Below, in pieces: positions 10,377 through 18,097 of a DNA stretch of 38,819 nt. Below the pieces are notes generated by a model. It did not search any database and was not told the origin of the DNA. It was given only the letters and a program-made list of their open reading frames with translations. This DNA is from an uncultured Candidatus Saccharibacteria bacterium (GTDB taxonomy: Bacteria > Patescibacteriota > Saccharimonadia > Saccharimonadales > Saccharimonadaceae). The position numbers and the translations under genes were made by a program. The stretch's first letter is position 1; each line of letters opens with the position of its first letter. The DNA lies in the NCBI GenBank assembly GCA_947306745.1, contig CAMZHH010000008.1, forward strand, positions 1 through 38,819, written 5' to 3'.

Positions 10377-11609
10377 ATGAAAAGCGTTGGGAAAATAATT
10401 ATTATTATTTTGGGTATCGCTGTAGTAGCAGGCGCTACCTGTGGGGTATTAGTCGCGATTAATAGTGGTTCTAAACAGCCGGAATCAACAGCCGAATCAG
10501 AACCAGAGCCAGAACCGGATCCGGTTGCGACGGCAGCAAAAATGCGCATAATGTATGCGGGAACGACCTTTTGGGGACGCCGTACGAATACGATGGCGCG
10601 CGAGTCGCAACTTGGTGTTAAATATCCTTTTTCTCAACTTGACACATTAGATCGTAAAAACTATGATGCCTGGATTGGTGGCTTGGAATGCCCAGTGACT
10701 GATAATGGCCATAATAAAGCTGAAGAAGAAAATATTTTTAAATTTAACTGCGACCCAGATTATTTGCCAGAAGCAGCGAAGTATTTTACAGCATTTGGGC
10801 TGGGCAATAATCACTCCGACAATCAAGGTGGTGGTGTTGGCTTAACTACTACACGTAAATATCTCGATCAGAATAAAATTCAGTATTTTGGTACGCCAAA
10901 ATATACTGGCACTGCCTCATCAGAATTAGCACGTGATACGGCGGAGGCTACGAATTGCGATATTGTCGTATTGCCAATTAATGTAACCTACGATAATGAA
11001 GAAACGAAAAAGATTCAGATGCCGTTTGGTTTTTGCTCGGCTCATGGCGTTTTCGGCGTGCCAGCGGAAGATTATTTGCAAAACATGAAGACTTATTCGA
11101 CGGTTGTGCCGACAATTGCGATGCCACATATGGGTGCCGAGTATAAATCTGTACACGATACTCTGCGTCAGAATTTGTATCATAAAATGATTGATTATGG
11201 CGTGGATGCAGTGATTGCCGATCATCCGCATTGGTCGCAAGATGCGGAAGCTTATAAAGGTAAACTAATTGTCTACTCGATGGGTAACTTTATGTTTGAC
11301 CAGGTTTTCAATAAAGAAGTGGTCCGTTCAGCGGCAATTGAAGCGAATGCTAAGATTAACATTGCTGACGTCGACTTTGATAAATGGAATGAGTTGGGTG
11401 AAGGGTGTTTGAAGGATAAAAAGACTTGCTTTACGAATATTCAAAATGCAAAATTACCACGCCTGCAAGTAACCTGGACTTATGATTATCATGCAACGAC
11501 TTCGGCCGATACGCGCATTACGCGCCTAGCGTCAGTTGCGGAGCAGGCCGATATGGGTGCGCGTCTAAAATGGTCTGCTATCCCAGCGGAAATGAAAGTT
11601 TCTAAATAG
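10377..11609 (+). CDS. capA: CapA-family (poly-gamma-glutamate capsule type) metallophosphatase-like protein
   Basis: A 410-residue protein of the PGA_cap/CapA family, calcineurin-like metallophosphatase fold, anchored outside the membrane by an N-terminal helix (IIIIILGIAVVAGATCGVLV) and a Glu/Pro linker. Family motifs are GGLECPVT (metal/Asn-Glu region), LGNNHSDNQG, the PHMGAEY segment, ADHPHWSQ and SMGNFMFD near the end. CapA proteins take part in poly-gamma-glutamate production or attachment in Bacillus; in other bacteria the role is unclear. Its 3' end overlaps the convergent ATP-grasp gene by 8 nt, so it sits next to the MurT/GatD/ATP-grasp cell-wall operon, which fits a surface-polymer role. 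The protein is longer than the core fold because of a Cys-containing C-terminal section. Confidence 0.8.
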   Translation: MKSVGKIIIIILGIAVVAGATCGVLVAINSGSKQPESTAESEPEPEPDPVATAAKMRIMYAGTTFWGRRTNTMARESQLGVKYPFSQLDTLDRKNYDAWIGGLECPVTDNGHNKAEEENIFKFNCDPDYLPEAAKYFTAFGLGNNHSDNQGGGVGLTTTRKYLDQNKIQYFGTPKYTGTASSELARDTAEATNCDIVVLPINVTYDNEETKKIQMPFGFCSAHGVFGVPAEDYLQNMKTYSTVVPTIAMPHMGAEYKSVHDTLRQNLYHKMIDYGVDAVIADHPHWSQDAEAYKGKLIVYSMGNFMFDQVFNKEVVRSAAIEANAKINIADVDFDKWNELGEGCLKDKKTCFTNIQNAKLPRLQVTWTYDYHATTSADTRITRLASVAEQADMGARLKWSAIPAEMKVSK

Positions 11610-12546
11610 ATTCTAGATACTCGAGATATTTGCGGACGGCTAAATCTGCGAATTCGTCACCGGAAGGCATGTAGAGTGAAGGTGAGCTGTTAATTTCTAG
11701 AATGTTTTCGCCAAAGAAATCAATACCGACGACTTTTAGCCCAGTAACTTTGGCGACACGAGTTGAGACGGCGCGTTGTGTGGCGGATAATTGGACGGTC
11801 TTTACGGTGCCACCCATACCAATATTGCAGGTTGAACTAACGCGTACTTTTACGCCCTGCTCTGGGATATTATTGGCCGTATCGCCGAGATATTTGAGCG
11901 CTTCTTCTTTATTAATGAAGGCGAGATTGGATTTGTAAGCTTCAGTGCGGATGGTTTGATTTTCGATATCGATTAACTCAGCTACGCTATGCTCGCCATC
12001 GCCTGTGATGGCGGCTGGAATACGCTCGAATGCGACAACGTATTCGCCGTTAATGTAGATGGCGCGAATCTCATTGCCGTCATATGCGACTTGTTTTTGT
12101 GCAATTACGGAACCTTGTTCGCAACGCGGTGCGAGTTCCGTTATGATTTTTGTGGCTTCTTCGGGGTCAGTAATGTTAGTAAAAATATCGCGTCCGTGAG
12201 CACCAAAAGTTGGCTTAATTACGATTTTGCCCTGCTCTTTGATGAAGTTGGTAATGTCTCCATGGACTGCGTCAATAGTTTCTGGTTGTGGCGCATTAAT
12301 GGTCTTTAATAAGTTATATGTAGCGAGTTTGTCACGTGCGATATTGCAGGCAAAATCAGTACTAGTTGGTGGTACGGCGGCAAAAATGCGTACTTCCTGG
12401 CCGTCCGGACGTGTCGCGAACAAGATGCTTGGACCGGGATGATAGAGCTTGCTAATTTTTGGCCAGCCACGTTCTTTGGCGCGACGCTGGAGCGCCTTCA
12501 TAGTCATTGGTAGCTCATCGGATGGGATGCTATAGAAATCTACCAT
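11602..12546 (-). CDS. ATP-grasp ligase (RimK / cyanophycin-synthetase-like)
   Basis: A 314-residue ATP-grasp enzyme that would join a carboxylate to an amine through an acyl-phosphate. Key parts are the Lys-containing KIVIKPTFGAHGRDIF nucleotide loop, NEIRAIYINGEYVVAFERIP, and the metal-binding C-terminal part VVGIDFFGENILEINSSPSL. The family resembles RimK, GshB and the cyanophycin synthetase core. It is the last gene of the five-gene operon and starts 2 nt after the gatD stop, with GAGG 7 nt upstream. The neighbourhood suggests it adds an amino acid to a peptidoglycan precursor or a Glu-containing polymer; the substrate is not known. A start at 12546 gives a normal N-terminal domain. Confidence 0.75.
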   Translation of the reverse strand: MVDFYSIPSDELPMTMKALQRRAKERGWPKISKLYHPGPSILFATRPDGQEVRIFAAVPPTSTDFACNIARDKLATYNLLKTINAPQPETIDAVHGDITNFIKEQGKIVIKPTFGAHGRDIFTNITDPEEATKIITELAPRCEQGSVIAQKQVAYDGNEIRAIYINGEYVVAFERIPAAITGDGEHSVAELIDIENQTIRTEAYKSNLAFINKEEALKYLGDTANNIPEQGVKVRVSSTCNIGMGGTVKTVQLSATQRAVSTRVAKVTGLKVVGIDFFGENILEINSSPSLYMPSGDEFADLAVRKYLEYLESI

Positions 12547-12548
12547 AA

Positions 12549-13265
12549 TTACCTCGGACGACTAATGGCAACTTTGTGTGCGCGCTGTTCGATGCGATCA
12601 TTTAAGACGGCGAGTTTTTGAGCTTTGCCGGTTTTCTTTTCAAGTGCTTTAAGGATTAAGAAGTCTGCTACGCGTGGGTTTTTCGGCAAGATTGGGCCAT
12701 GAAGATAGGTGCCGATGCAGTTTTTATACATTGCACCTTCGGTCATATCTTCGCCATTATTGCCAGCGCCATTGACGACGGTACCGAAGGCGAGCGTGCC
12801 TGGTTTAAGCGTGGTGAGGCCGGAATGATTTTCGTAGCCAACGACTTCGCCGAGTTCTGGCGTATTAATAGTAATGTTTCCTATTAAACGAGTTGGGCCG
12901 CCTTTGGTAGTAATACCAAGAATGTTAGTACCTTGAATTTTTTGACCTTCGCTAGTTTCAAAATATTCACCAAATAGCTGATAGAGACCGCAAATGACGA
13001 GCGTCGGCGTGCCGGCTTCAATCATTTCTTTCAATTCTGGCGCGATGCGAACAAGGTCTTTTTCGATTTTACTTTGACCGGAATCCTGACCGCCACCGCC
13101 AAAAATAATATCGATATCATTTGGAATTTCTTGGCCTGGTTCGTGCGTGTAAACTTTAGTTTTGATACCACGCCATTCGCAACGTTTACGGAGCGTTAGA
13201 ATGTTGCCGTGATCGCCGTAAAGGTTCATTTCTTTTGAATATAAGTGAAGAATATTTAGATTCAT
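12549..13265 (-). CDS. gatD: Lipid II isoglutaminyl synthase glutaminase subunit GatD
   Basis: A 238-residue class-I-like (CobB/CobQ-type) glutamine amidotransferase. It releases ammonia from glutamine and passes it to MurT for amidation of the D-Glu alpha-carboxylate in lipid II. The nucleophile is Cys92 in VICGLYQLFG and the catalytic His is His189 in YLHGPI, the same spacing as described for Staphylococcus aureus GatD (Cys94/His189). Length fits the family. The start ATG overlaps the murT TGA (ATGA), so both subunits are coupled for a 1:1 complex. Together with MurT this indicates a Gram-positive-like wall chemistry. Confidence 0.9.
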   Translation of the reverse strand: MNLNILHLYSKEMNLYGDHGNILTLRKRCEWRGIKTKVYTHEPGQEIPNDIDIIFGGGGQDSGQSKIEKDLVRIAPELKEMIEAGTPTLVICGLYQLFGEYFETSEGQKIQGTNILGITTKGGPTRLIGNITINTPELGEVVGYENHSGLTTLKPGTLAFGTVVNGAGNNGEDMTEGAMYKNCIGTYLHGPILPKNPRVADFLILKALEKKTGKAQKLAVLNDRIEQRAHKVAISRPR

Positions 13266-14497
13266 AGTAAGCTCTTTCCGGAGATTATTTTACGAATTTC
13301 TAGCATCGCCGTATAAGTGGTAAAGATGCGTTTTGGCTTTTTGTTGGCGGTGGCGAATTTATCGACGGCAGTTTCGAGATTTTCTTCGATTTTTTCAACT
13401 TTGACATCATCGTATTTGAGGCGCAAGGCCATGTCGGTAGCACGAATGCCGGAAACCATTTTAACGCTAGGAAGTGCTTTAAAATCGACATTCCAGAGCC
13501 AGGAAATATCGTGACCATCAGCAATATTGTCGTTAATTGCAATCATATAATCATGTTCATCGTCGACAAAACTGGCGAGGCTAAGTTGGAAGGCGCTCGG
13601 ATTTTTAACGAGCAGAATTTCAACTTCGGCATCATTAATTTTGAAGACTTCCCCACGGCCGAAGGCGGACTCCACTTTGCTGAGCGTCTGTACAAAATTG
13701 GCGCTATCGGTTTCTGGCAAAATAGTGCTAACTAGTGCGAGTGCGCCAGCGGCGTTGTAAGCGTTGTAAATACCCTTGAGCGTAAGGTTGGTTTGGTAGT
13801 CGCTAGTTTTGATGTGATAACTGGCTTTTTGGCCGTTGAGTTTTTCGAGCGTAACAAGTGCGGGCTGTGTGGAACTATGAATGTCGGCTTTATCGAGTAA
13901 ATTATCGTCGGATGGGAATTTTTTCAATAAAGTATCGGAAAGGCCAAAGAATACTTTATGCTTGGCTTTAATTTTACCAACGCGCGGATCCTCGCGATTA
14001 AGTACGACGGCTTTTTGGGCATTCTCGGCAACTTTCTGAAGTAATTCTGCCGTGTGGTCGATTTCGCCAAAGCGATCGAGCTGGTCGCGCTGGACGTTGA
14101 GTAAGAGCGCGTAATTAATCGGTACAACCTCGCAGAATTTAACTGCATGCGCTTCGTCGAGTTCAAGTACGGCGATATCGTAATCGAATTTTCCGCTGAG
14201 TTTGATATTTTTCAAAATGGCGGAAATAACACCACGGACGAAATTGCTACCGGTCTTGTTAGTGAAAACCTTAAGGCCTTCGGCTTCGAGTAATTCAGTG
14301 ACGATTTTAGTAGTGGTGGTTTTGCCGTTTGTGCCTGACACTACTACGACGCCATATGGTAATTTGGATAGAATATTGCGAACGAATTTTGGATTCGTAC
14401 GTTCGATTACGAGGCCCGGTAATGCGGAGCCGCCGTTGCCGCGAAGGCGGGTGACTTTTTGGACGCTTTTACCGAGGAGAATACTTAGTTTTTCCAT
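13262..14497 (-). CDS. murT: Lipid II isoglutaminyl synthase ligase subunit MurT, without zinc ribbon
   Basis: A 411-residue Mur-ligase-family protein. The P-loop is VSGTNGKTTTT (residues 53-63), followed by the Glu-containing LELDEAHAV and the NVQRDQLDRFGEI segment. The C-terminal DUF1727 part has GHDISWLWNVDF, where the Asp corresponds to the residue that completes the GatD catalytic triad in studied homologues. MurT uses ATP to activate D-Glu of lipid II for amidation with GatD ammonia. The Cys4 zinc ribbon that studied MurT proteins carry in the middle domain is missing: the protein contains a single Cys, near residue 123, and the region around residues 195-235 has none. It overlaps the ABC-2 permease by 13 nt and gatD by 4 nt. 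Confidence 0.88.
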   Translation of the reverse strand: MEKLSILLGKSVQKVTRLRGNGGSALPGLVIERTNPKFVRNILSKLPYGVVVVSGTNGKTTTTKIVTELLEAEGLKVFTNKTGSNFVRGVISAILKNIKLSGKFDYDIAVLELDEAHAVKFCEVVPINYALLLNVQRDQLDRFGEIDHTAELLQKVAENAQKAVVLNREDPRVGKIKAKHKVFFGLSDTLLKKFPSDDNLLDKADIHSSTQPALVTLEKLNGQKASYHIKTSDYQTNLTLKGIYNAYNAAGALALVSTILPETDSANFVQTLSKVESAFGRGEVFKINDAEVEILLVKNPSAFQLSLASFVDDEHDYMIAINDNIADGHDISWLWNVDFKALPSVKMVSGIRATDMALRLKYDDVKVEKIEENLETAVDKFATANKKPKRIFTTYTAMLEIRKIISGKSLL

Positions 14498-15741
14498 GTG
14501 CTACGTGGGCTCCCGAGTAATTTTTTAAAGTTGATTTTCGCCGTAAATTCGATAGCGTTTTTGCAGAAGATGTGGGTTGCAAGTTTTGTGAGTAAGGCGC
14601 CTACGATTACAATATCTGCGAGACCAACCCAGAATTCCCAAGTGGCGAGCGAACCAAAGATGGCGCGTAGCATGATAGCGATTGGTGCACTTGGCGGGAA
14701 ATAAGTTAGGAAATACATCATGAATTGGTTTTCGGTGCCACCAAAGCTGCCAAGGAAGAAAATTGGCAAAATCACCATAATGACTAAGACGCTGGAATAT
14801 GAGTTGGCGTCTTTAGCGGTTGGCGTAATAGTGCCAATGATGACACAGCAGGCTGTGAATAGGAAGTATGACGCAAGTAACAGTAATGAGTATTGCGCGA
14901 TTGATAAGGCATTCAAACTTTCAATTACGAATTCTGGAATCGCGTTATAATTCAAGCCAACTTTATACAATATGAGTACTGGAATTACGAGTACGGCGAG
15001 CTGGATTAAGCCGACAATCATCAAAGAAATAATCTTGCCGACGATTAAATTACGAGGATTAATACTAGTAAGCATCAATTCGCTAATGCGGTTTTCTTTC
15101 TCTTCCGTCATTGCTACTACAAGGCGGTTACCTAGTACGATGATTAGAATGTAAAACAGAGCGAGCGCGATAATTGGGCCGGAAATTTTGCCGGTGATTT
15201 CGCCCATTTCAACTTCGTGGTTGTCTTTAGCGTCGTAAGTCGTAGTGTCATAACTGATCGTGTTTGTGATGATAGCGTAATTGATCGGCGAGACATCCTG
15301 GACGGCTTGCGTTTGTAGAATTGTGGCAATTGGCAAAGAATAATTGTCTAGCAACTTTGCTTGATCTGGTTTGACGTAAATATTAACGGTTGGATTTTCG
15401 GCGAAGTTTTGCGGAATTGCATAAAAGACGTCAATTTCTTGATTCTGAACGGCCGCGATGCCGCTAGCTTCATCATCAAAAAGCGTGAATTCTTGTTCAT
15501 TGCCATCTTCGTTCACGATTTTGGTTGTTTTGAGATATTCGGCGCCATCATAAAGGCCAAGTGTCATATTGGATGTGTCAGTGGCGGAATCGAGCATCTC
15601 GCCAGCGGAATAACCGCTCATGGCGGCGATGAAAATGTAGAATGCAAATAAGACAGGAATCAGAATTGCAGCGGCCCAGAAACTCGGCTTCTTAATACTG
15701 CGCATAACCTCGAAACGAATGACTTCGAAAGTTTTATTCAT
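14485..15741 (-). CDS. ABC-2-type transporter permease (NatB-like)
   Basis: A 418-residue membrane subunit of an ABC exporter. One N-terminal helix (FWAAAILIPVLFAFYIFIAA) is followed by an extracellular domain of about 150 residues, then five or six membrane helices. The cytoplasmic segment VAMTEEKENRISELMLTS is the ABC-2 signature before TM3. The architecture matches NatB/YhaP-type exporters. The start at 15741 has GAGGA upstream and gives MNKTFEVIRFEVMRSIKKPS, the normal start for this family; it overlaps the ATPase gene end by 8 nt. The substrate is unknown; co-transcription with MurT/GatD points to cell-envelope work or antimicrobial defence. Confidence 0.85.
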   Translation of the reverse strand: MNKTFEVIRFEVMRSIKKPSFWAAAILIPVLFAFYIFIAAMSGYSAGEMLDSATDTSNMTLGLYDGAEYLKTTKIVNEDGNEQEFTLFDDEASGIAAVQNQEIDVFYAIPQNFAENPTVNIYVKPDQAKLLDNYSLPIATILQTQAVQDVSPINYAIITNTISYDTTTYDAKDNHEVEMGEITGKISGPIIALALFYILIIVLGNRLVVAMTEEKENRISELMLTSINPRNLIVGKIISLMIVGLIQLAVLVIPVLILYKVGLNYNAIPEFVIESLNALSIAQYSLLLLASYFLFTACCVIIGTITPTAKDANSYSSVLVIMVILPIFFLGSFGGTENQFMMYFLTYFPPSAPIAIMLRAIFGSLATWEFWVGLADIVIVGALLTKLATHIFCKNAIEFTAKINFKKLLGSPRSTWKN

Positions 15742-16483
15742 GGCTTTCCTCCTCTGCTTCGTTTTCGCCATAGACATCGACAAAGATTTGATCGAGTGAT
15801 TTGTTGTTGAATGATTTGCGAACTTCACTGACGGTACCGTAAGCGCGTGCGACGCCATCTTTTAATAGTAAGATGCGGTCGCAAAGACGTTCAACTTCAT
15901 CCATGTAATGAGTAATCATAATGATTGTGCTGCCCTTTTGATGTAATTCGTCAATGATATCCATCAGTAAGCGGCGATTAACTGGGTCGAAGCCTTTGGT
16001 TGGCTCGTCGAGAATAAGCAATTCCGGATCATTCATGACTGTGATGCCGAGCTGAATTTTCTGCTGCTGACCTTGACTGAGTTTATTGATACGCGTCTTG
16101 GTATGATCTTCGAGACCGACGCGTTTGAGGAAGTCTAAGCTCCATTCTTTCGGATTTTTGAGACCACGTAGGCGACCGAAATATACCATCACGTCGATGA
16201 CGGATTCTTTTTTATAAAGTCCGCGTTCTTCTGGCAAGTAGCCGATGCGAATATCGCCGCCAGGCTTAAATGGTTTGCCGTTAATAAGTAATTTACCGCC
16301 AGTTGGTTGGTAAAGATTAAGTAGTGCGCGAATGGTGGTAGTCTTGCCGGAGCCGTTACTACCAAGCAGGCCGAAAATCTCACCTTTTTCAACTGTAAAA
16401 GATAAGTCTTTGATAACGACCCGATCAGCGAAAGACATCTTGAAATGCTTTACGTCGATGAGCGCGGTATTTTTCTTCTGCAT
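15734..16483 (-). CDS. ABC transporter ATP-binding protein (NatA-like)
   Basis: A 249-residue ABC ATPase that powers the ABC-2 permease encoded next. The Walker A is GLLGSNGSGKTTT, the signature LSQGQQQKIQLG, Walker B LLILDEPTKG and the switch His is in MITHYMDE. It is the first gene of the five-gene operon. The ATG follows a TGCTAAAAT extended -10 box by 9 nt with no Shine-Dalgarno, so the whole operon mRNA would have a leader of only about 3 nt. The C-terminus after the nucleotide domain (SLDQIFVDVYGENEAEE) is typical of drug/Na-type exporters. Confidence 0.9.
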   Translation of the reverse strand: MQKKNTALIDVKHFKMSFADRVVIKDLSFTVEKGEIFGLLGSNGSGKTTTIRALLNLYQPTGGKLLINGKPFKPGGDIRIGYLPEERGLYKKESVIDVMVYFGRLRGLKNPKEWSLDFLKRVGLEDHTKTRINKLSQGQQQKIQLGITVMNDPELLILDEPTKGFDPVNRRLLMDIIDELHQKGSTIIMITHYMDEVERLCDRILLLKDGVARAYGTVSEVRKSFNNKSLDQIFVDVYGENEAEEESHE

Positions 16484-16582
16484 ATTAGAAATATTTTAGC
16501 ATTTTAGGGGTGAATTATGTAGAGCTGAAAAAGATTGCACTTATGCTTTTCATTTTGCGCGATTGACGGTTGGATAGAGCGC

Positions 16583-18097
16583 ATGAAAAAGATATTCGTA
16601 GTTATATTATGTGTGGTCGGTGGTCTGCTTTTTGGCGGACGTGCGTCGGCGGCGAGCTGTGTAGATATTGAGTTCATGTTTGCGCGTGGCTCGGGCGGTG
16701 TTCATGTTGAGAATGTCGAGTATCAAGCTTTCGTGCGTACGATGACGAAGATGGCGAATCGTATCGGTATGGCAAGTTATCGTTTTACGGACGTGGATTA
16801 TCCAGCAGTATCGGTGTCGGTTCCAGCTAACGCGATTGGTGCGTATATTTCTGCTGGTAAATATTATGCATTCGGTAGAAGCGTGACGTCTGGCGTGGAT
16901 TGGCTGACGGATTATTACAATAAGACGATGCGCAATTGTCCTACTACGCGTTGGGTGTTGGCGGGTTATTCGCAGGGCGCGATGGTGATAGCGCAGGCAG
17001 TACAGCGCTTTCGAGCGGATCGAGTGATCTATATTGGCCTAGTAGCAGATCCGCAGACTAATTTACCGGAAGGTCGCGGTTTAATTCCGGATGCCTGTTT
17101 GGGGCGCAATTATTCGCCGTATCGAGTTTTTGTACCGGTTTGTCGGACCGATAAAGGGCGTTTAGGGGCGCGTAATCCGTATCAATATGGCGATTTGGCT
17201 GGTAAGTATGGCCTATGGTGTGGGCGAAATGACTATGTATGCGGGAGTACGGCTTCGCCGTTGAATAATTCTGGCCACACTCAGTATGTTGATGCGGGAA
17301 GTTATATGCAAATGTCGTATTTAGTTCAGCAAAAACTGACGACTTCTACTTCTCCCGTAATGCGTTCAGCGCGGACTGTGGCGTCCGATGCAGAACTCTA
17401 CGCCTTTTTGAATCAGGATGAATTTTTTGCGCGGCCGGAAGATGAAGTAGTGATTTCTGCTGAAATGAGTTTTTCGACAAATAGCCAGATTACGACATAC
17501 GAATGGGCGATTGATGATAGCGACTATGCTGTCGGTGATGCTGTTTTGAGGATGAGTTTCCCGCTTGGTAAACATCAAATACGCCTAAAGATTCGAGACG
17601 CTAAAGGATTGACGGCGGAAGCGGTAGCGCAGGTGACGGTAGCGGATAGTTTCATGGATGAAGATTTGCCAGCTCCATTGGTGCGTGCAGAGCGTCAGGC
17701 GGATGCGGTCTACTTTACTTGGCATGACGTTCCAGAACGGGCGCAATATCTACTAGTGCGATTGAATGGTTTTGATTTGGATTATGTTAAGGCCGATAGT
17801 CTGGTGGTTGGTATTCACGATTTAGAGATTAATGATCAGGATACGCTTAGCGTGGCTTGGATGGATACGGATTTTAACGTGGGCGCCGAGCATATGGTTG
17901 CGATTAAGGATGTGGAAGAAGTGGAGGTGCTGTCGCATGAGCAGACTTTGCAGCCAAAAGACACAGACGCTGAATCGGCGAATGCTCCACAAACCGGCGT
18001 TAATATGAGTGATGTTTTCTTGCTGGGCGTTATTGTGATTTTGGCCTGTATTTTTGTCATTGTCATAAAAAATACCCGCCACTTGCGTGACGGGTAG
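16583..18097 (+). CDS. Exported cutinase-like serine hydrolase with PxTG-like C-terminal anchor
   Basis: A 504-residue secreted protein. Residues 1-24 are a signal peptide (MKKIFVVILCVVGGLLFGGR then ASA). Residues 25-260 are a cutinase-family alpha/beta hydrolase with the elbow AGYSQGA (Ser130), Asp217 in CGRNDYVCG and His232 in NSGHTQYVD; the Cys pairs fit cutinase disulfides. A PKD/Ig-like region (about 290-375) and a second beta-rich domain follow. The end is NAPQTGVN, a hydrophobic helix (FLLGVIVILACIFVIVI) and a basic tail (KNTRHLRDG), which has the layout of a sortase-type or PxTG anchor but lacks the Leu of LPxTG. Cutinases cleave esters such as lipids or mycolate-type esters. The ATG at 16583 is chosen because the signal peptide begins there. 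Confidence 0.8.
   Translation: MKKIFVVILCVVGGLLFGGRASAASCVDIEFMFARGSGGVHVENVEYQAFVRTMTKMANRIGMASYRFTDVDYPAVSVSVPANAIGAYISAGKYYAFGRSVTSGVDWLTDYYNKTMRNCPTTRWVLAGYSQGAMVIAQAVQRFRADRVIYIGLVADPQTNLPEGRGLIPDACLGRNYSPYRVFVPVCRTDKGRLGARNPYQYGDLAGKYGLWCGRNDYVCGSTASPLNNSGHTQYVDAGSYMQMSYLVQQKLTTSTSPVMRSARTVASDAELYAFLNQDEFFARPEDEVVISAEMSFSTNSQITTYEWAIDDSDYAVGDAVLRMSFPLGKHQIRLKIRDAKGLTAEAVAQVTVADSFMDEDLPAPLVRAERQADAVYFTWHDVPERAQYLLVRLNGFDLDYVKADSLVVGIHDLEINDQDTLSVAWMDTDFNVGAEHMVAIKDVEEVEVLSHEQTLQPKDTDAESANAPQTGVNMSDVFLLGVIVILACIFVIVIKNTRHLRDG
18067..18096 (-). terminator. Intrinsic terminator for the leftward small gene, inside the cutinase 3' end
   Basis: TACCCGCCAC (18073-18082) pairs with GTGACGGGTA (18087-18096) with one mismatch, and the minus strand continues with six T. 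It ends the transcript of the 86-codon gene. The plus strand has no T-run after the stem, so it does not terminate the cutinase transcript. Confidence 0.65.

Follow-up and report, generated by a model that had tools for sequence, protein, structure and literature searches.

The window, that is, the whole stretch of DNA analysed here (38,819 nucleotides), belongs to a genome of about 0.94 Mb, in a family with genome sizes of about 0.5 to 1.5 Mb, which is compatible with the name Saccharibacteria. It contains genes for an ABC exporter, MurT, GatD and an ATP-grasp enzyme on one strand and a convergent gene for a CapA protein, so that all genes named in the original prediction are indeed present. 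The features of the locus are as follows.

15734..16483, minus strand: DrrA/NatA-like ATPase of an ABC transporter, encoded at the head of the operon and conserved in the genus (Pfam ABC_tran, 1.4e-30)
14485..15741, minus strand: ABC-2 type permease, NatB-like (Pfam ABC2_membrane_3, 1.3e-31)
13262..14497, minus strand: MurT, ligase subunit of lipid II isoglutaminyl synthase (Pfam MurT_C, 6e-27; Mur_ligase_M, 5.8e-18)
12549..13265, minus strand: GatD, glutaminase subunit (Pfam GATase_3, 6.9e-38; NCBIfam GatD, 2.6e-63)
12549..12557, minus strand: 3' codons of gatD, CCG AGG TAA, with the GAGG Shine-Dalgarno motif of the ATP-grasp gene
11602..12546, minus strand: stand-alone ATP-grasp ligase resembling the G domain of cyanophycin synthetase, between gatD and capA
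10377..11609, plus strand: CapA/PGA_cap protein with an N-terminal hydrophobic segment (Pfam PGA_cap, PF09587, 3.5e-35)
16535..18097, plus strand: secreted cutinase-like protein, divergent and outside the operon, a neighbour conserved in the genus (Pfam Cutinase, 7.2e-15)

The arrangement had been described as an overlapping five-gene operon at 11602-16483 with a convergent CapA gene. The orientation of capA was correct, but the gene lies outside that range. Overlaps are present between the genes for the ABC ATPase and the permease (8 bp), the permease and MurT (13 bp), and MurT and GatD (4 bp), but gatD and the ATP-grasp gene are separated by 2 nt (AGG TAA TT ATG). The 3' ends of the ATP-grasp gene and capA overlap tail to tail by 8 bp. 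The permease gene starts at the conserved position 15741 and not at the first ATG at 15858.

A TAAAAT-type box is located close to the ATG of the ABC gene, and Shine-Dalgarno motifs precede the genes for the permease (AGGAGG), MurT (GGAG) and the ATP-grasp enzyme (GAGG). No such motif was detected in the 20 nt checked upstream of gatD, the start of which overlaps murT. These motifs fit a single transcript extending from the ABC gene to the ATP-grasp gene. Across the window (1-38819), a TAAAAT-type box only a few bases from the ATG tends to mark genes that resemble operon leaders and look leaderless, whereas operon-internal genes tend to have Shine-Dalgarno motifs instead. The cutinase-like protein (16535-18097) also matches PKD weakly and has a hydrophobic segment in its C-terminal part. 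An assembly chimera at the ATP-grasp gene is unlikely, since synteny with sister genomes extends over the flanking regions, the gene has GC and GC3 values near those of the neighbouring genes, and a suitable Shine-Dalgarno motif is located at the junction.

MurT-GatD and its neighbourhood

The best NCBIfam matches were MurT for the ligase subunit (1.2e-56; 192.5 bits versus a curated cut-off of 800) and GatD for the glutaminase subunit (214 bits, below the cut-off of 450); these equivalog cut-offs are set for characterised families and are not a biochemical definition. In MurT, the MurT_C domain (PF08353) and the Mur ligase middle domain (PF08245) score above the Pfam cut-offs, and the P-loop GTNGKTT at residue 55 and the motif DGHDISW are present. 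Cys92 and His189 of GatD match Cys94 and His189 of the Staphylococcus aureus protein. From its domains, the P-loop, the DGxDxSW motif and the two residues of GatD, the pair would be a standard lipid II amidotransferase converting D-Glu to D-iGln. These motifs and the organization as a two-gene unit are shared with MurT-GatD of S. aureus and S. pneumoniae, but the pair in the window differs in being embedded behind an ABC pair and in scoring under the NCBIfam cut-offs. Its MurT contains a single cysteine and is therefore without the cysteine tetrad, as is MurT in some other bacteria.

MurT was detected in 106 of 121 genomes of the family. MurT-GatD was not found in the 16 genomes of genus g2 that were searched, nor in some genomes of genus g1 that are 97-100% complete (G158, G011, G126), and lipid II amidation has therefore probably been lost more than once. 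In G134, two FemAB-family genes adjoin the MurT-GatD-CapA block (L060:10309-12425).

For comparison of the neighbourhood, 20 sister loci from the genus of the window were used. The order ABC-permease-MurT-GatD is contiguous in 15; the ABC-permease genes are locally split off in four, and the ABC pair is absent from one. CapA is encoded beside MurT-GatD in 16 loci, convergently in eight and co-directionally in eight, while of the other four loci two end before this position and two hold another gene there. The secreted cutinase-like gene recurs in loci of the genus as well. The neighbourhood of ABC pair, MurT-GatD and CapA is a trait of the genus, in which the orientation of CapA towards the operon represents one of two arrangements. 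In genomes from outside the genus, the best permease and CapA homologues are encoded at a great distance from MurT or on different contigs, and no such neighbours were found at 20 MurT loci from other genera. The scattering in related genomes that was to argue against the original prediction thus largely occurs beyond the genus, but within it the genes other than that for the ATP-grasp enzyme are kept together in most loci.

A module of some kind linked to the wall is plausible, given that CapA keeps its place next to GatD whichever way it is oriented. Joint action of the ABC pair with MurT-GatD and CapA in the genus, for instance in envelope homeostasis and independently of the ATP-grasp enzyme, is favoured by the contiguity in most sister loci, whereas the four loci with a split, the one without an ABC pair and the separation outside the genus speak against it. 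We regard such joint action as possible, at somewhat less than an even chance; it is compatible with the explanation preferred below.

The PGA_cap domain is shared with CapA/PgsA proteins of poly-glutamate capsule export, but the adjacent CapB/CapC (PgsB/PgsC) are missing among the flanking proteins scanned, which were an SDR, an NTP transferase, an amino acid permease, MurT, GatD and the ATP-grasp enzyme. CapA of the window and 16 orthologues from the genus have in common the segment AGTTFWGRR, or close variants of it, and (G/A)GLECP; all of them keep NNH, and nearly all keep HPH. The first two segments presumably occupy the place of the metal-site residues (GD..., NLE) of typical PGA_cap proteins, and the metal site is possibly changed in these proteins.

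A probably movable ATP-grasp gene

The ATP-grasp gene was not found behind gatD in any of the 20 sister loci, and this part of the expected gene neighbourhood did not hold beyond the window's genome. In the nearest sister locus (L048), gatD and capA abut. The last codon of gatD in the window, AGG, yields the GAGG in front of the ATP-grasp ATG. None of the 19 readable sister genes ends with AGG; arginine is kept at this position in about half of them and glutamine is found in most others. This codon choice suggests selection for translation of the ATP-grasp gene.

The 14 closest homologues all sit elsewhere. In G158, G150 and G134, which belong to the genus, a close homologue (41-46% identity) follows ftsA-ftsZ-nrdR-trx; ileS comes next in two of them, and the third copy ends near a contig end. 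In all eight sister genomes in which the ftsA-ftsZ-nrdR-trx slot was readable, it contains no ligase gene. The ligase is also present in 11 sampled genomes of genus g2 (40-47% identity). Among the 15 genomes carrying the close ligase clade, MurT is absent from 12, namely G158 and the 11 of g2. Most likely, the gene specifies a patchy, movable accessory ligase that was inserted behind gatD in the genome of the window.

An AlphaFold2 model of the 314 aa protein (pLDDT 89.4, pTM 0.86) matched cyanophycin synthetases (CphA1) best among solved structures (Z 26.9, rmsd 3.4 over 298 residues; Foldseek 2.8e-21), followed by GshF as second structural class (3ln6, Z 23.8). By sequence, phmmer gave 83 bits to CphA, and only positions 191-430 of the 862 in the NCBIfam CphA profile are matched. 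The structural similarity to the CphA1 G domain thus covers the whole length of the protein, but the N domain and the Mur-like M domain of CphA1 are lacking. A split cyanophycin synthetase, with MurT serving as M domain, was considered and rejected, because MurT is clearly MurT and the polymer contacts are changed.

Residues were mapped onto TeCphA1 (PMC9427784). K220, K261, H267, R309, R323, N394, D431 and E450 are all kept, among them the equivalents of the P-loop histidine and of catalytic Arg309, Arg323 and Asn394. The ATP, Mg and acyl-phosphate residues kept in the window protein are K73, K111, H117, R161, R175, D276, E284 and N286, and N241 is kept as well. In contrast, Asn is found in place of E215 of CphA, Gly in place of S396, Ser in place of G456 and Tyr in place of R458, and of the contacts to aspartate or the polymer (E215, N394, S396, R458) only N394 is left. 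Given the conserved ATP, Mg and acyl-phosphate residues, activation of a carboxylate and formation of an amide bond are very likely, while the amino acid used is not predictable with Gly at S396 and Tyr at R458.

In the phylogenetic tree, a separate clade (100/99) holds the ligase together with its kin, distinct from CphA (83/99) and from RimK, with E. coli RimK in another clade; GshB and DdlB are on long branches and their placement is unsure. The N-terminal domain of RimK (PF18030) was not matched by the window protein in Pfam searches.

Association of the wider family with RimB and RimK

Although the tree separates the ligase from RimK, the gene context of its wider family points to the Rim system. 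The retropepsin-like protease RimB (Zn_protease, PF05618) trims poly-glutamate from ribosomal protein S6, to which RimK adds it (PMC11957791, PMC7343187, PMC10092738). In 24 of 35 other homologue loci, RimB and/or RimK is encoded within six genes of the ligase, or the ligase is fused to RimB. For a random gene, the chance of lying within six genes of RimK was estimated as about 1.4% in a genome of about 900 genes, the loci not being independent of each other. Gene orders vary (RimB-RimK-ligase, ligase-RimB-RimK, divergent), suggesting more than one event. However, only seven of the 14 closest homologues adjoin RimB-RimK, and the window gene and those of G158, G150 and G134 do not; in the genome of the window, RimB-RimK is located elsewhere, on contig C1 (G000:C1). 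Part of the proximity to RimK may reflect shared synteny rather than function, and in genus g8 a distance of about 4 kb separates MurT-GatD itself from RimK-like matches. An initial assignment of the neighbour of ligase homologues as Ddl was wrong; it is RimK. Grouping with enzymes modifying ribosomal proteins, which was to count against a role in the wall, was therefore found by context, but not by tree.

Four fusions of a CphA-like ATP-grasp domain to a RimB-like retropepsin (PF05618) were detected (L071:7228-8775, L072:7785-9329, L073:7913-9463, L083:6854-8269). Three of these belong to the genus of the window and are located beside a second ATP-grasp gene or an ORF of similar size, while that of G101 is beside RimK. 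The three fusions from the genus keep S396, G456 and R458, of which S396 and R458 are Asp-binding residues of CphA. Tandem pairs of RimK-like and CphA-like ATP-grasp genes with overlapping ends occur in other genera of the family (L075:8788-10634, L074:7399-9226, L076:7808-9627). RimB-RimK fusions (RimBK) are known (PMC11957791), but in the hybrids described here the partner of RimB is a CphA-like ligase and not RimK. Pairing of an ATP-grasp enzyme with a RimB-like retropepsin is also seen in the rlo operon of Pseudomonas aeruginosa, which comprises the RloA protease, the membrane transglutaminase RloB and the ATP-grasp enzyme RloC (PMC12239564); unlike there, the RimB-like protease here accompanies a true RimK. 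A limited literature search revealed no papers on Saccharibacteria with MurT/GatD, ATP-grasp or RimK, or on Patescibacteria with cyanophycin synthetase.

Function of the ATP-grasp ligase

Taken jointly, a standard MurT-GatD in a genus-specific operon and an inserted, Rim-associated accessory ligase that adds no step to a new wall pathway is the explanation we prefer, and we consider it slightly on the probable side. MurT-GatD, encoded behind the ABC exporter pair and beside CapA, would amidate lipid II, and the ligase would be translated from the murT-gatD message by means of its own Shine-Dalgarno motif in the last codons of gatD. It would use ATP to turn the carboxylate at the C-terminus of a protein or peptide into an acyl phosphate, with participation of His117 and Arg161, and join an amino acid to it. 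The likeliest substrate may be the RimK-made tail of S6 or free poly-glutamate. Against this explanation stand the separate location of RimB-RimK in the window's genome and the similar situation of the nearest homologues in the genus, as well as the tree. The tight fit behind gatD would mean expression together with MurT-GatD, which could reflect function. A more specific proposal, which is tentative and less likely to be true than not, is that of a third Rim enzyme: a CphA-like ligase of small-genome bacteria that uses a further amino acid to extend, cap or change the RimK-made C-terminal tail of S6, or else free poly-glutamate, the product being trimmed by RimB. In the organism studied here, this enzyme would have come under control of a wall-amidation operon.

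It is also conceivable, though rather unlikely, that a movable gene took advantage of operon expression by chance and encodes a metabolic dipeptide or cofactor ligase, similar to GshF or NAGGN synthetase and unrelated to its neighbours. The patchy and relocating gene, the rank of GshF among the best structural matches and Tyr at the R458 position, which is allowed in GshF, would be accounted for. However, His117 in the P-loop is of the CphA type and not Tyr or Phe as in GshF, and the repeated proximity to RimB/RimK and the fusions make it less likely that the family is purely metabolic; GshB is distant in the tree, but on a long branch.

Least probable, and by a wide measure improbable, is the undescribed wall-modification pathway originally proposed, in which the ATP-grasp enzyme attaches an amino acid to the lipid II produced by MurT-GatD, or makes a Glu-based polymer for handling by CapA and export through the ABC pair: the ligase gene 2 nt behind gatD with its own Shine-Dalgarno motif and the genus-wide linkage of the other genes are in its favour, as is a precedent from Enterococcus faecium, in which the D-Asp ligase (Aslfm) that modifies wall precursors is an ATP-grasp enzyme, but the ligase of the window is behind gatD in one genome only, most genomes of its close clade have no MurT, Glu215 of CphA as polymer contact is not kept, and the wider family clusters with RimB-RimK. 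Interpeptide bridges are usually made by FemABX enzymes. Their genes are present elsewhere in the genome of the window and in 43 of 45 genomes of the genus, so that an ATP-grasp bridge ligase is not needed, and a cross-bridge role of this gene, which is independent of MurT, was discarded as main reading. Coupling of an ATP-grasp wall ligase to MurT-GatD is thus not supported, and the link to RimB/RimK provides the better lead.

With the Rim-associated accessory ligase as preferred explanation, a tempting story of a wall pathway gives way to a testable link, a stand-alone CphA-like ligase that in related genomes is repeatedly encoded beside RimB or fused to it near RimK. The genus-level neighbourhood of ABC genes and CapA may be a hint to envelope genes that function together with the amidation of lipid II. 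If the ligase acts on S6 tails, it would represent new chemistry in ribosome modification of bacteria with reduced genomes.
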